Origin: an uncultured Bacilli bacterium
GTDB lineage: Bacteria; Bacillota_I; Bacilli_A; RF39; UBA660
NCBI GenBank assembly: GCA_947629475.1
Contig: CANRDV010000011.1
Coordinates: 1-34,429 of the forward strand
Direction of reading: 5' to 3'
DNA: 34,429 nucleotides
The position numbers and the translations under genes are program-made. Below are positions 4,854-19,363 of this stretch, piece by piece (the first letter of the stretch is position 1; the number at the start of each line of letters is the position of its first letter). The notes under the pieces are model-generated. The model had not been told where the DNA came from. It saw nothing but the letters and a program-made list of their open reading frames with translations, and did not search any database.

Positions 4854-6573
4854 CAGCAAAAAAGAGTAAAATTACTAAAAATTTCTTCGCAAAAAAATCT
4901 ATGATATAATTATATAGAATAGAAGGAGTTTAAAGTAATGTGTAAAGAATTAAAAAAGGAAATAGAAGAAGCAAAAAATTTGCCAAGAGCAGAAAGAAGA
5001 AAGGTAGAAAGAAAATTACAAAAAAAATATAATAATAAATCAATACGAATAGAGAAAGGTACTAAATTTAAAAAGACAAAAAATGAATTAACAAGAGAAC
5101 AAAGAAGAGAACTAATCAAAGATAAAGATTTACAAAAAGAAGTTATGAAAATAATAAAAAAATATCTTCCAGAACTAACTAATTTATTTTCTAAATTAAC
5201 TGATAAAAGACATAAGTCATATGTAACATATAAAATGCGTACCATTATCTTAACTAAGATAATTGCTCTTATATGTGGAATTACTACCATGACTGAAATA
5301 TCTTCTAATAAATTTAACACCGAAGCTGCAATTAAAAATCTTTCTAGCATTTGTAATCAAGAACTCAAAGAAATTCCTAATTGGCAAACTATTCAAGATG
5401 TAATTGAAACTTTAGAATATAAAGAAATTGAAGAAATTAGAAAATATATAGTTAATGCTTTAATTAGAAGTAAAATGTTTGATCGTTTCAGATATAATGG
5501 TCATATTCAAGTTGTTGTTGATGCTACTGGTATCACAGCTTTAGATTATAATTTAAATGGTAATTGTATTAGTAAAAAAAGAGATGGAAAAATAAAATAT
5601 TATAAATATGTTTTAGAAGCAAAAATAGTCTTTGGAAATATAGTTATCAGTTTAGATACAGAATGGATTGAAAATAATGAAATTAACACTGAAAAGCAAA
5701 AGCAAGATTGTGAAATCAATGCATTTAAACGTATGGCACCAAGAATTAAAAAAAATTTTCCTAAATTAAAATTTATTATTACTAGTGATGCTTTATATGC
5801 CACTACTCCTATGATTAATATTTGCAAAGATTATAAATGGAAGTTTATTTTTAACTTGAAGAAAAAAAGACTTAAAAATGTTTGGGAACAATTTGAAGAT
5901 AATATTAATTATGAAAATGAAACTTCTAAAATTAACTATTACTTATCTCGTAATATTAAATTCAATGGAAACACTTTTCATGCCTTTAGATATATTGAAA
6001 CCAAAAATAAAAAAACTACCACTTTTAACTATATTAGTAATTTAGATGTTAAAAATAGTAATATTGAAGAAATTGTTGCTATGGGTAGACGTCGTTGGAA
6101 AATCGAAAACGAGGGCTTTAACCAACAAAAAAATGGAACTTACTGCATTTCTCATTTATGTAGCAGGAATGAAAACGCTTTAAAAATTCATTACCTATTT
6201 ATTCAGTTTGCTCATATTATTAGACAACTTTTAGAATATGGTTCTATTATTTTAAGAGAAATGAATTTATCTACAAAAAAAGAAATAAGTGACATAATTA
6301 TCAACACACTCACTTATTCCACCACAACAAATCTTAATATTTTAGAACTTAATTTTCAACTAAGATTTGATAATTAAATTATACTATAAATGTTCTTTGA
6401 AATCTAGTGTGTTGATAATATTTTTTTAAATTTGACATTTGTTTACACTTGCCAAATTTTCCTTCTATTGTTTTTATCATGCAATAATTTATGTGAAAAA
6501 AAACTTTATGAATATTTTTTTATCTTTTATTCGTAAAGTTTTCCTTTTTAAATTAATTTACTCTTTTTTTCTG
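4854..6573 (+). mobile_element. complete insertion sequence, DDE transposase, about 1720 bp
   Basis: Left end CAGCAAAAAAGAGTAAA (4854) and right end, reverse complement, CAGAAAAAAAGAGTAAA (ending 6573) match 16/17; flanked by direct repeats ATTATTTC at 4846-4853 and 6574-6581. Confidence 0.9.
4938..6377 (+). CDS. DDE transposase (IS4-like/DDE_Tnp_1 type)
   Basis: Single 479-aa ORF with VVVDATGI, FIITSDALYA and GRRRWKIENEGFNQQKNGTYCISHLCS motifs. Confidence 0.85.
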   Translation: MCKELKKEIEEAKNLPRAERRKVERKLQKKYNNKSIRIEKGTKFKKTKNELTREQRRELIKDKDLQKEVMKIIKKYLPELTNLFSKLTDKRHKSYVTYKMRTIILTKIIALICGITTMTEISSNKFNTEAAIKNLSSICNQELKEIPNWQTIQDVIETLEYKEIEEIRKYIVNALIRSKMFDRFRYNGHIQVVVDATGITALDYNLNGNCISKKRDGKIKYYKYVLEAKIVFGNIVISLDTEWIENNEINTEKQKQDCEINAFKRMAPRIKKNFPKLKFIITSDALYATTPMINICKDYKWKFIFNLKKKRLKNVWEQFEDNINYENETSKINYYLSRNIKFNGNTFHAFRYIETKNKKTTTFNYISNLDVKNSNIEEIVAMGRRRWKIENEGFNQQKNGTYCISHLCSRNENALKIHYLFIQFAHIIRQLLEYGSIILREMNLSTKKEISDIIINTLTYSTTTNLNILELNFQLRFDN

Positions 6574-12786: not shown

Positions 12787-13662
12787 TTAAATTTCTAAAT
12801 CGTTTATTGTCATATCTTTAGTACCTATATAAACATCTCTATTTCCATTTAAAGTATTACATTTAATAATTGTGTAATTACCATACTGATATATCATACT
12901 ACCACCATCTTTATATATATCGCCTGTTATATTGTTTTTATTTAAATCTTCGTTTGCTTTTTCAAGAATTTCATTCATTGTTATTTTATTTTGTAATAGT
13001 GCCTCTCTTAATGGAATACTATTTTCTGTTAATTCTGTATCACTATTAAAGTTTATAGCAATATGTCCTTCAAAAGCATATACATTATAATCTATATCTT
13101 TAATTTCATTTTTACCTATAATTAATTCTTTTTGTTTTGGTTTTATTGCTGTTTTTTGATAGAATACAAGATTAAATTGATTAATTAATTGTTTATTCTC
13201 TAAAAGTTTATCACCTGTTATACCAAGTTCGGCATCATCTCCTTGTAACGAAATTTCAATGATATATTTTCCATCAACTTCATATTTAAGAATATAAATA
13301 CCACTACCAATATCAATAGTATTTCCTAGTATTTCAACTATGTCTTTATAAGTCATAGATGGTGTGAGTTTTGATACTTGTTCAGATGTAACTTTAGACA
13401 TCGTATCTGTTACATTATTTTTTTTATAAATAGGACAGGTATATTTAGTGATTTTCCAAGTAGTTTTTTCTTCGTTGTTTCCACAATGATAATGATTAAC
13501 TAATATTCCTTTATCCATATATTGTACATAACCATCTTTAAAGTCTTTTCTTATTTTAATAAGTGGACTATTATCAAAAACTTTTGCTTGTAAAGTATCA
13601 AGTACAACAATTCCTACCAAAACACCTAGAACAATTAAAGTAATTTTTAAACCTTTTTTCAT
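12787..13662 (-). CDS. membrane-anchored protein with inserted BLIP/SmpA-like domain
   Basis: Shares ends with the 204-aa paralogue; insert MSKVTSEQVSKLTPSMTYKDIVEILGNTIDIGSGIYILKYEVDGKYIIEISLQG. Confidence 0.8.
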   Translation of the reverse strand: MKKGLKITLIVLGVLVGIVVLDTLQAKVFDNSPLIKIRKDFKDGYVQYMDKGILVNHYHCGNNEEKTTWKITKYTCPIYKKNNVTDTMSKVTSEQVSKLTPSMTYKDIVEILGNTIDIGSGIYILKYEVDGKYIIEISLQGDDAELGITGDKLLENKQLINQFNLVFYQKTAIKPKQKELIIGKNEIKDIDYNVYAFEGHIAINFNSDTELTENSIPLREALLQNKITMNEILEKANEDLNKNNITGDIYKDGGSMIYQYGNYTIIKCNTLNGNRDVYIGTKDMTINDLEI

Positions 13663-14538: not shown

Positions 14539-15117
14539 TCAATATTTTATTTTAAATAAATCAAATACATCCAGTTTAACCTTTTTTAAGTTACTTTTTA
14601 TTTTTCTATTAGTATACTTTTTTGCATATATGTCTAAATACTTTTCTATCTTATTGATATCAAACTTCGAATTAATATAGCAATTTCTATTAAATAATTT
14701 TTGTATAATAAATATCGTAAACGTATTAGCATCTACCTCTATATCTTGTTTATAAAAATCTTCATTACCAAAATTTATATAATTATCAAAATTATGTTTC
14801 CAAATGGCTAATATATTTTTATCTTCTGATGACATATTCGGATTCAATATTTGTTGATATTGAAAGAAATGTCTATATTCGTGAGTTACAGAAAATATCT
14901 CATCATGTGTTTCCATATTATGTTTGTCTAAATTAATATATATAATATTATGTTCTGTAAAAAATTTTGCATTTATATCAATATATTTAATATCTACTTC
15001 TTGATCATTATAAATAATCTTTTTATTTTTTGCAATTACTAAATTAGGTTTAATTTTCAACCGTAATACTAATCCTAAAAATTCTATATATTTTTTATAA
15101 TATTCAACTATTTCCAT
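14539..15117 (-). CDS. zincin-like putative metallopeptidase
   Basis: SVTHEYRHFFQYQ contains HEXXH; downstream EVDANTF resembles the third-ligand region of ImmA/IrrE-type proteins. Confidence 0.55.
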   Translation of the reverse strand: MEIVEYYKKYIEFLGLVLRLKIKPNLVIAKNKKIIYNDQEVDIKYIDINAKFFTEHNIIYINLDKHNMETHDEIFSVTHEYRHFFQYQQILNPNMSSEDKNILAIWKHNFDNYINFGNEDFYKQDIEVDANTFTIFIIQKLFNRNCYINSKFDINKIEKYLDIYAKKYTNRKIKSNLKKVKLDVFDLFKIKY

Positions 15118-15162
15118 TTTTCCATCTCCTTAATTAACCTCATTTAATTTTCCAATATAATT

Positions 15163-15366
15163 TTAAATTTCCAAAGTATCTTCAATTTCTCCTGTTTCAT
15201 CATATTCAACAAACCAAACTTTTCCATTATCTTTTTTCTCTATTATCTCACAATCATTACAATTACCATCAGAATAATTTAAACTCACTATTAAATCTAA
15301 ATTTTGAACTTCATCGCCCATTTTCTCTTTGAATGATTTTAAAATTTTTTCTTCCAAACTTAACAA
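15163..15366 (-). CDS. small acidic hypothetical protein (67 aa, TTG start)
   Basis: Strong GGAGGGAGG RBS; promoter-like GGTATAATG upstream. Confidence 0.6.
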   Translation of the reverse strand: MLSLEEKILKSFKEKMGDEVQNLDLIVSLNYSDGNCNDCEIIEKKDNGKVWFVEYDETGEIEDTLEI

Positions 15367-15437
15367 TCAAATTACCTCCCTCCTGAAAATAAGTAATTGA
15401 TATAATAACATTATACCATACTTGAATAATTATTACT

Positions 15438-15464
15438 ATAAAAAAAGATACCTTTTGAAGTATC
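15438..15464 (-). terminator. rho-independent terminator downstream of the XRE pair
   Basis: Minus strand GATACTTCAAAAGGTATC followed by TTTTTT(T). Confidence 0.65.
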
Positions 15465-15652
15465 ATTAATAATTTTAAAATATATTATTTAATTTTCTTG
15501 ATATCAGTTCTATCAACCAAATAATTAATTATTATTTTTTAAAAAGTTGAATAAATAAAATAAATTGAAAACACGGACAAAAAAAGTCCATAAAAAGATT
15601 TAAATTTAAAATAATATTTGATATAATAATGTTGAAAATCAAATATGTAATT

Positions 15653-15967
15653 TTATTTTAAAAACTCATCAAGAGATTTATCAAAAATCCAAGATAATTT
15701 GACTAAATTTTCAAGGCTAATATATTTATGCTTATCATTTTCATTTTCCAATCTTTTATAATGGACTATACTTATATTTAAATAATCAGCAATATTAGTT
15801 ATACTATATGGGTTTTCAGTACCCACAGCACCTCGATGCAGTTCTTTATATTTATTGTAGTACTCTAGTCTTAATTCATGTAAATTTTTACATATCTTAT
15901 GTCTAATTTTATCTATATCAAAATCATCAATTTTTTCATAAATTTGATATATCTCTAAAATTTTCAT
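15653..15967 (-). CDS. XRE/HTH-like regulator
   Basis: YSITNIADYLNISIVHYKRLENENDKHKYISLENLVKLSWIFDKSLDEFL; start placed at MKILEIYQ. Confidence 0.65.
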   Translation of the reverse strand: MKILEIYQIYEKIDDFDIDKIRHKICKNLHELRLEYYNKYKELHRGAVGTENPYSITNIADYLNISIVHYKRLENENDKHKYISLENLVKLSWIFDKSLDEFLK

Positions 15968-16077
15968 TTTTCGATCACCCAATATTATTATTGCATTTGC
16001 AGAATAATTTTTGGTATCATATAGAGACATTTGCTAAAAAGTGTGTTATAATTTATAGGTAAATGAATTTTATATAA

Positions 16078-16290
16078 TTATTTTTTGCGAACAATAACTT
16101 CTATGTCATGTGTTTTACAAATATTTAAAAATATTGATAAACTAACATTTGCTCTTCCATATTCATAATCTTGAATTGTTTTTGGACTTTTATGTATAGA
16201 TTTAGCAAATTCTTTTTGAGTTAATTCAGTCCATTCTCTTAGAATTTTAATTATATCTTTTACTTTATAATCATTAGCTCTTAACTGCAT
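16078..16290 (-). CDS. XRE-family HTH protein (70 aa)
   Basis: IKILREWTELTQKEFAKSIHKSPKTIQDYEYGRANVSLSIFLNICKTHDIEV. Confidence 0.85.
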   Translation of the reverse strand: MQLRANDYKVKDIIKILREWTELTQKEFAKSIHKSPKTIQDYEYGRANVSLSIFLNICKTHDIEVIVRKK

Positions 16291-16365
16291 TTATCTATAC
16301 ACCTTCTTTCACAGTTTAACCAAACTAAATATATAATACACCAAAAGGGATTTTTAGTGTCTGAT

Positions 16366-16386
16366 TTGCCGGAACACATCCGGCAA
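16366..16386. promoter_or_regulatory. perfect GC-rich palindrome, candidate operator
   Basis: TTGCCGGA-ACACA-TCCGGCAA in the divergent control region between 16290 and 16444. Confidence 0.65.
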
Positions 16387-16443
16387 TACAAGTTATTATT
16401 TACAAAAATAACAAAAATATACAAAGATTGGAGATGATAATTT

Positions 16444-17479
16444 ATGAATAATATAACAAAAGAAAGTTTAATTGAATTAACATTTAATTCAACAATGGAA
16501 ATTAAAAACTATCTATTAAAATTACTTGAAGACCATAAGCAAGAATTTAATAATTATTGTATAATAAAAAAAATAATAGATAATACGAGTATAGAACTAT
16601 TTGAGGCAAAAAAAAGTTGCAAAAACAGCAATGATAATAAATATTTTTTAAAAGGGTTTTATACTTGTTTATATAAATATAATTCACTTATAAATCAACT
16701 ACAGCTTATTTTTGGAAAGGATAATGACTTTAATTATGAATTAATCAGCAAATACTATTTTTATAGTAAACAAATTCAAAGGTTTATTCATTATAAATTC
16801 TTTAAAACTTATTCCAACTTATTCTAAAGAAGAGATCGAAAAAGAATTTAATACAGATATAATTCATACTATTAGTGTTTCATTATTTAATTTAAGAAGA
16901 TTTTATATTATTCATTACAAATCATACAATAATACCAAAAACTTAAATGAAAACGAAATAAGAGAAAATGACTACTATAACATATTATTAAAAATAGGAA
17001 AATGTTTAAGTAAAGAAAGTATTATTGCAATTTTTAAAATTAAAAAAGTAACTTCATGTGAATTAAAAAATAATAATTTAATAACTGAAATTGATAATAT
17101 TATTAGTGATTTAAATCATAGTAAATTAAATATAAAAATTGCTAAACAAGAAATGAATTTAGAATTTAAAAAAATTATTAATACTTTTATTTCAAACTTA
17201 GATTCATTTAAAAATACTTATAAAGATTATAGTATTAATGATGTTGATACGAATATTATTGATCAACAATTTAAAATAATTTTATTACAATTCAATATAC
17301 TTTACAAAAAAGCCAAATATAACATCAAAATTATTCAAACAAATTTAAAGCTTTACTCATATATATACAAAAATAATAGCACTCATAACATATCTATTGA
17401 TAGAATTTATAGTGCATTTGATTTCAGCAGAATTTTTTATATCATAAATGAATTAAATGAGAAAGGAGGATTATGTTGA
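16444..17479 (+). pseudogene. orphan helical protein gene with one frame disruption (or sequence error)
   Basis: ORF 16444-16827 continues in the +1 frame (...LKLIPTYSKEEIEKEFNTDIIHTISVSLFNLRRFYIIHYK...) through MNLEFKK (17153) to 17479; RBS GGAGATGAT before 16444. Confidence 0.65.
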
Positions 17480-18012
17480 TGAAAAATAATAAATATTATT
17501 ACTACGAATTTAAAGATTTTTCAATAAATAAAGAAAATGTTTTAAATTTAATAGTAACCAACTATATGAGAAAAATTAAGTTAAATCAAGATTATTCAAT
17601 TCTTGTTTTAACAAATAGTGATAATGAATTTGATTTTTTTGTTAAATATGTAAATGATATTCTAAATAACATTACAATTAAAACTATTAATGATTATTTA
17701 CCATCTTATTTACAATATAATTTTAAACAAAAAGATTTAGATAACATGAAAAAATTAAAAATTATACAAATGACAAAAAAAGATTACAATAATTATAATA
17801 ATGAATATGATTTTGTTATTCTTAAACCAATAACAAAAAGATATTTGGAAAAAATTGTATATGATAAAACATATCATGAAAAAAGTAATAGTAATAATTA
17901 CTTATATCAAAATAATATTTATCTAAAATACTACAAAAATACTTTCGATAAAATATATAGAAAAGCATTAGGAAATTTTCATACAATTAATAATAAACCA
18001 GAATATAGATAG
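17473..18012 (+). CDS. orphan hypothetical protein (179 aa)
   Basis: Overlaps the upstream ORF end; AAAGGAGG RBS; no family recognised. Confidence 0.7.
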   Translation: MLMKNNKYYYYEFKDFSINKENVLNLIVTNYMRKIKLNQDYSILVLTNSDNEFDFFVKYVNDILNNITIKTINDYLPSYLQYNFKQKDLDNMKKLKIIQMTKKDYNNYNNEYDFVILKPITKRYLEKIVYDKTYHEKSNSNNYLYQNNIYLKYYKNTFDKIYRKALGNFHTINNKPEYR

Positions 18013-18037
18013 TTCACACACTATCTATTTTTTTATT
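18005..18037 (+). terminator. rho-independent terminator of the orphan operon
   Basis: ATAGATAGT-tcacac-ACTATCTAT followed by TTTTTTT. Confidence 0.8.
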
Positions 18038-18086: not shown

Positions 18087-18295
18087 CTCACAGCTAATCT
18101 CAAATCATATTTAATAATTAAAAATTTTCATTATAAATAACATTTATGAACACGACCATATTTTTTAAAATGCTATTGATATAATAATATTTAAATCTGC
18201 TTTATCTTCTTTATTATCTGTAGATTCGATAAGTATCTTTTTATTATCAAAATACCCCTTAAAATAAAGCAATTCAGTTATTTTTAACAATCGTG

Positions 18296-19336
18296 TCATA
18301 TCGAATAGTTTTGCCACCATATGTATCCTATATTTAAATATCCACTTCCATATGCTGTATCATCATCAACAGAACCTAAATTTTTATAACTTTGATAATA
18401 TTCATATGCATTTAATAATCCTACTTTTCCGTCTATTGTTGCTCCTGTTGGTTTTGCTGAGGTTGAACAACTATCTGCTGTTGCATACCATTTTGCATCT
18501 TGTACTATTATATTTTCTTGACTTTCTAGTGTATCTAAAAAATCTTCATTTAACCATTGATATATCCAGGAACCTTTATATGTTGTATTGATATTCCATG
18601 TTATTGCTGTTATTGCATCTTGCGTTATCATTTTTATTGTATTATCGGGATTTATGGCTGTTATTCTCCATAGTTTTCCAGAATACCAAACATAATTAAA
18701 GTTTATTTGGTCATTGGTTCCTGAAAGATAGGTTGTATCACCATCATTTACAGAATTAGAATCATTTAAATCATTCTTAATAAAATCTAATAAAGGACCA
18801 GTTTTTACATAAGACTCTTGATTTGATTCAATATGAATTTTAGCATTAAATGTCTTACCCATATAAGTTTCATCTGCTTCTTCTTTAAGATAAACCTTTA
18901 CATGATAAGTTGCTTCTTTAGTTGCTTCTAAAGTAGCATTATAATCAATATACTTATTTTCACTTAATACAACAGGTTGATTATAATCTCCAGTATCCTT
19001 TTTAACTATATACTTAATAACTGATTTAAATTCTGGATTAGTTGAAGTCTCTTCAATTGAAACATTATAATAAGCTTTTACTGTTCCTTCATTTTTTACT
19101 GTAAAAACTAATTCCTTTTCAACTAAGGCTCCTTCTTCATCAGTCATTGGATACATATTAGATGCATTTAAAGATGAAGATGTTGCATCTTGAAAATTAA
19201 CCTTTAAATCTCCTACATTAATAACATAGTTATTTTGACTAGTTCTTGTACTTCTTAAAAGTGCATAACTTGATGATAATATTAATATTAAACTTAATGA
19301 TATTACCATTACTATTAATTTCTTTTGATTACTCAT
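18296..19336 (-). CDS. secreted surface protein with TasA/CalY-like N-terminal region, possibly C-terminally truncated
   Basis: Signal/TM IVMVISLSLILILSSSYALLRSTRTSQNNYVINVGDLKVNF, then FNYVWYSGKLWRITAINPDNTIKMITQDAITAI; start at MSNQKK (19336) with GGAG RBS. Confidence 0.7.
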   Translation of the reverse strand: MSNQKKLIVMVISLSLILILSSSYALLRSTRTSQNNYVINVGDLKVNFQDATSSSLNASNMYPMTDEEGALVEKELVFTVKNEGTVKAYYNVSIEETSTNPEFKSVIKYIVKKDTGDYNQPVVLSENKYIDYNATLEATKEATYHVKVYLKEEADETYMGKTFNAKIHIESNQESYVKTGPLLDFIKNDLNDSNSVNDGDTTYLSGTNDQINFNYVWYSGKLWRITAINPDNTIKMITQDAITAITWNINTTYKGSWIYQWLNEDFLDTLESQENIIVQDAKWYATADSCSTSAKPTGATIDGKVGLLNAYEYYQSYKNLGSVDDDTAYGSGYLNIGYIWWQNYSI

Positions 19337-19363
19337 ATTTTTAACTCCTTTTTTTAACATAAA

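Follow-up and report, generated by a model that had tools for sequence, protein, structure and literature searches.

The locus is probably a compact, operator-controlled XRE/orphan accessory cassette under XRE70, a small regulator that, together with its partner XRE125, diverges from a two-gene orphan operon across a palindrome. The gene order, the conservation of the XRE pair, the geometry and enrichment of the palindrome, the covariation between recognition helix and palindrome arms, and the homology of orphan 1 were all observed directly, while the direction of control and the function of the orphan genes are proposed from them. The window (the whole 34,429-nt stretch of DNA analysed) has a GC content of 0.23, belongs to a 1.72-Mb genome and provides a single sequence of the locus.

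Organisation of the locus

Much of the gene layout proposed by a previous sequence-only reading was recovered (Table 1). ORF listing and Pfam HTH_3 confirmed both XRE genes, the palindrome TTGCCGGA-ACACA-TCCGGCAA and the HEYRH and EVDANTF motifs are present, and a terminator-like hairpin, formed of a 9-bp stem, a 6-nt loop and a T run, lies directly 3' of orphan 2; this hairpin was missed by our terminator scan because it is too AT-rich for the threshold of three G-C pairs. The orphan operon stood only in part. Orphan 2 was confirmed at 17473-18012, while the span 16444-17479, previously taken as one gene, consists of two overlapping frames, with that from 16444 stopping at 16827 (127 aa) and that ending at 17479 opening at 16745 in the +1 frame. 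The break, near 16,801-16,827, may on sequence grounds be either real decay or an assembly error, and as orphan 1 is frame-broken this copy of the cassette may be partly dead.

Table 1. Features of the cassette and its flanks, in window coordinates.
Feature	Position	Strand	Basis or remark
HEXXH protein, 192 aa (HEYRH...EVDANTF)	14539..15117	-	judged outside the cassette
Terminator-like hairpin separating the HEXXH unit from the XRE pair	15572..15592	-	scan: 1 found, 0.2 expected
XRE125 gene	15653..16030	-	partner gene of XRE70
XRE70, 70-aa single-HTH regulator (Cro/C1-type)	16078..16290	-	Pfam HTH_3
Candidate sigma-70 promoter TTCACA-18-TATAAT for the orphan operon	16308..16337	+	consensus match only, 11/12 positions
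Palindrome TTGCCGGA-N5-TCCGGCAA, proposed XRE70 operator	16366..16386	.	
Orphan 1, first part, 127 aa, ends at frame break	16444..16827	+	
Orphan 1, second part, +1 frame	16745..17479	+	
Orphan 2, 179 aa	17473..18012	+	
Terminator-like hairpin after orphan 2	18005..18036	+	read from sequence

Elsewhere in the window, the genes at 333-947 and 12787-13662 encode proteins with nearly identical N-termini (MKKGLKITLIVLGVL...), likely a paralogous exported pair. A 479-aa ORF at 4938-6377 looks like a transposase, and no other obvious mobile-element gene was seen in the window. The 3' end of a surface-type protein gene at 18165-19360 overlaps an ORF in another frame, so that this gene is possibly frame-broken.

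Conservation of the XRE pair

XRE70 matches Pfam HTH_3 with E=2.9e-9. XRE125, which is also XRE-like and has a long loop in its HTH region, matches the same family at E=0.0034 and fails the Pfam cut-off, yet it can be aligned with nine homologues; these begin at Met22, and the true gene is therefore probably 15653-15967 (104 aa). Clear XRE125 relatives were found in at least a dozen genomes, and in three other loci such a relative adjoins a close relative of XRE70, with 71-74% identity between XRE70 and its counterparts. One of these pairs is a paralogue in the window's own genome (G000:C14) and the other two (G181 and G091) are from two other genera. In both G181 and G091 the XRE pair is again divergent from a two-gene orphan operon, here encoding proteins of 237 and 189 aa, to which the second part of orphan 1 has no detectable similarity, and a further genome (G286) holds a near-copy of the XRE70 side of this arrangement. 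The own-genome paralogue lacks both a matching palindrome and a divergent operon. At that locus (L059 1408-3732, on contig 14) the XRE70/XRE125 pair sits 3' of a Schlafen AlbA_2/RecG-C-like gene and is followed by a double-HTH XRE gene.

The expectation that the XRE and orphan genes are conserved together thus held for the arrangement, since the XRE pair faces other orphans elsewhere, and not for the exact combination, as the full set of XRE70, Orf1 and Orf2 (orphans 1 and 2) was found at this locus only. The role of XRE70 as a regulator is well supported.

The palindrome as a putative operator

Within the window, the palindrome is the sole perfect inverted repeat with 8-bp arms and at least four G/C per arm, while shuffled windows are expected to contain ~0.07 repeats of that kind. 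It is also unique in the 1.72-Mb genome when up to two mismatches are allowed, and it is the one inverted repeat within the 153-bp control region. DNA alignment of the control regions places it opposite TTCCTAT-TATCG-ATAGGAA in G181 and G091, which together count as one independent comparison because their control regions are near-identical; a fourth row of that alignment (L189) had wrong coordinates and was disregarded. In each of the three loci, 68 bp separate the palindrome centre from the orphan start, and 86 bp (window) or 88 bp (G181 and G091) separate it from the XRE70 start; the 5-bp spacer is likewise common to all three, while the arm sequence of the window differs from that of the other two. 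What recurs in homologous loci is a palindrome of the same architecture and position, with a different exact sequence. The intergenic regions of G411, G031, G180 and G142 contained no inverted repeat.

XRE70-type proteins were matched in 87 of the 326 genomes searched (E<=1e-12), and from these we took 113 distinct family genes, chosen for their similarity to XRE70, irrespective of neighbour or palindrome. Upstream of 36 of the 113 there was an odd-centred palindrome with at least 7/8 pairs, compared with 2.0 in shuffles (maximum 5), and controls on the same genes gave six even-centred palindromes and two inside the gene; taken singly, only 20/113 reached p<0.02. Many of the family palindromes have their centre 59-64 bp away from the start codon, with the subgroup of the window at 86-97 bp. 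Recognition helices and arms change together, with SRDSINNIEN paired with TTGAGTAT, TKTAIQYYEY with AACCAAC and, in the window, SPKTIQDYEY with TTGCCGGA. Across the family, operator similarity followed recognition-helix similarity beyond that of the rest of the protein, with a modest partial r of 0.21 that was not equalled in any of 500 permutations.

An XRE70 dimer would bind the 21-bp palindrome and from there set its own level, keeping the divergent Orf1-Orf2 operon silent, or at a fixed level, until release, while XRE125 would tune this control. We infer that XRE70 acts as a repressor rather than an activator. A derepressible module with effectors of no assigned role, as previously proposed, survives in this form, with its protease component dropped (see below).

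Alternative explanations for the locus

It is possible, but unlikely, that XRE70 instead activates the divergent orphan genes, as phage XRE factors do. In those modules the phage factor switches on a gene transcribed divergently from its own, the partners have no homologues, five residues in the recognition-helix region set promoter specificity and the targets inactivate the cI repressor (PMC10432266). The window and G181/G091 resemble them in having a small XRE-type factor divergent from a target without known homologues, and perhaps in a private specificity set by the recognition helix, as helix and operator covary here too; the modules are unlike in sequence and alike in logic. Unlike the phage modules, the target here is a two-gene operon of larger proteins, control is probably by repression, and no cI or phage genes were seen near the locus. 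The best candidate orphan promoter, a consensus match only, argues against activation, as it is upstream of the palindrome; the palindrome would then fall downstream of the start site, where a bound protein more likely blocks polymerase than recruits it.

Less probable still is a controller-protein/restriction system, in which XRE70 would be a C-like protein and the orphan-1 family a restriction-type effector. XRE70 matches the PADLOC 'Control_protein' model, a Type I R-M system adjoins the XRE pair of G091, and a C5 DNA methyltransferase lies beside an orphan-1-family gene in two loci (L185 and L186). In each of these two genomes the methyltransferase is apparently split into two ORFs (L185 6088-7135; L186 2528-3606). 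The operator of C.Csp231I, formed of 5-bp arms and a 5-bp spacer (PMC4321490), is also similar, in that both systems have a small XRE regulator and a palindromic operator, putative in our case, with a 5-bp spacer upstream of the regulator's own gene, although the arms here are 8 bp and there is one palindrome, not two. Unlike the loci of Type II R-M controllers, the cassette in the window contains neither a restriction endonuclease nor a methyltransferase, and no methyltransferase was seen in what was read of the orphan-1-family loci L183/L184, L032 and L192. Neither orphan 1 nor its family yielded a nuclease domain. A C protein usually has a left and a right operator, and the single palindrome of this locus departs from that.

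We consider it very improbable that the palindrome is not a DNA operator at all and acts as an RNA hairpin in the orphan mRNA leader, in attenuation or translation control. The leader does fold well (z=-3.2), forming this hairpin and, close to the ribosome-binding site, a second stem. However, the position of the palindrome is fixed relative to both the XRE gene and the orphan, odd centring is seen family-wide and the arms track the recognition helix, while the corresponding repeat in G181/G091 is AT-rich and shorter.

The sequence-only reading had compared the HEXXH protein to the ImmA/IrrE proteases that inactivate XRE repressors (ImmR/ImmA). A module in which it would cleave an XRE repressor after DNA damage and derepress the orphans we now regard as hardly credible, as we do the related CapH/CapP scheme. 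The likeness to ImmR/ImmA of ICEBs1-type elements and to CapH/CapP (PMC10233336) is that an XRE regulator is divergent from accessory genes with a HEXXH gene nearby, and this HEXXH is followed by a downstream Glu-containing helix. A weak match to PADLOC capP (E=7.9e-4, residues 55-163) suggests that the protein may be a distant ImmA/IrrE-type enzyme, but it had no match in Pfam (including its peptidases), NCBIfam or PDB, and its structure model (pLDDT 44) is too poor to judge, a fold search with it being uninformative. Unlike in those systems, the HEXXH gene is neither co-transcribed nor co-conserved with the regulator, and XRE70 consists of a 70-aa HTH alone, without a further domain that could be cleaved. 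Between the HEXXH gene and the XRE pair lie a 67-aa ORF and a terminator-like hairpin, searches of 288 genomes from the order, of the species-genome collection and of viral contigs detected no homologue, and a gene of this type was found in 0/124 related loci, many of them only ~2-3 kb long. A tie between the HEXXH gene and the cassette is not supported, and neither is the ImmR/ImmA model, because the gene is beyond a terminator, has no detected homologue and is absent from related XRE loci. A HipBA-type toxin-antitoxin was rejected, as there is no HipA and the gene after XRE70 is XRE125.

The locus lacks defining features, among those we tested, of both C-protein R-M and ImmR/ImmA systems. 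Its proposed logic matches that of the phage XRE factor/divergent orphan modules, and the form of its putative operator that of C.Csp231I. An XRE70-controlled accessory cassette is our preferred reading.

The orphan genes as possible mobile-element cargo

Searches of Pfam, PHROGs, NCBIfam, PADLOC and PDB sequences gave no convincing match from which to name either orphan. The first part of orphan 1 (16444-16827) had no family match, while its second part can be aligned across 210 residues to the C-terminal half of an orphan family of 425-486 aa, scoring 23.7 bits against a best of 2.4 in 600 composition-preserving shuffles. Wherever members of this family were seen, they diverge from small XRE genes. 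For four of them an XRE neighbour is to be expected, because they were found through XRE70; those in G031 and G411 were found without XRE and are likewise divergent from small XRE genes.

Orphan 2 is a predicted alpha/beta protein (single-sequence AlphaFold2 model, pLDDT 54, pTM 0.55), for which a fold search was Rossmann-like and uninformative, returning only IDH fragments at E of about 0.04. Relatives of orphan 2 were found in three other genomes only. The relative in G110 is part of a Mob relaxase/recombinase/Rep element, that in G196 has PcfJ/SSB/resolvase surroundings, and the copy in G401 is broken. Those in G110 and G401 face a double-HTH XRE, which is different from XRE70. The view that orphan 2 is itself a phage or plasmid gene was rejected, since viral contigs, phages and plasmids yielded no match. 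From their relatives, orphans 1 and 2 look like exchangeable cargo. Furthermore, L068 and L183/L184, judged by reading the sequences, share one mobile-element backbone with different XRE cassettes beside the same genes. The orphans are probably mobile-element cargo and perhaps defence or element-competition genes, and the cassette may have a role in defence or mobile-element control, as originally suggested.

Possible XRE70-type switches across the lineage

A divergent neighbour is present for 80 of the 113 family genes, compared with 22% of background genes, and an N-terminal hydrophobic stretch is present in 59 of the 80, against a background of 16%. The divergent neighbour mostly has an N-terminal membrane segment in L080, L081, L087, L089, L092, L094, L097, L098 and others, and many such membrane-segment proteins facing XRE70-family genes resemble SipW/TasA-type surface proteins. 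Facing exported or surface-protein genes may be the main role of the XRE70 family, and since most members face exported-protein genes, control of mobile-element cargo would be a minority use. Two loci (L187 6964-7590 and L188 7115-7747) encode a protein of 208-210 aa that gives a weak Cas4/NERD-like (PD-(D/E)XK) signal and is divergent from an XRE70-family gene, and in L188 serine-recombinase-like genes are found near it.

We tentatively suggest, at somewhat less than even confidence, that the lineage carries private XRE70 switches, each paired with a palindrome to match and with a divergent gene of its own, which mostly encodes an exported protein and sometimes mobile-element cargo. If this is true, many surface and accessory genes would be controlled independently by closely related small regulators via orthogonal operators. 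The findings give an unstudied low-GC bacterial family a testable regulatory code, with dozens of small regulators whose predicted binding sites can be compared in sequence with the recognition helix. Searching in this way also locates the target genes, among them mobile-element orphan cassettes that may be defence or competition genes missed by libraries.
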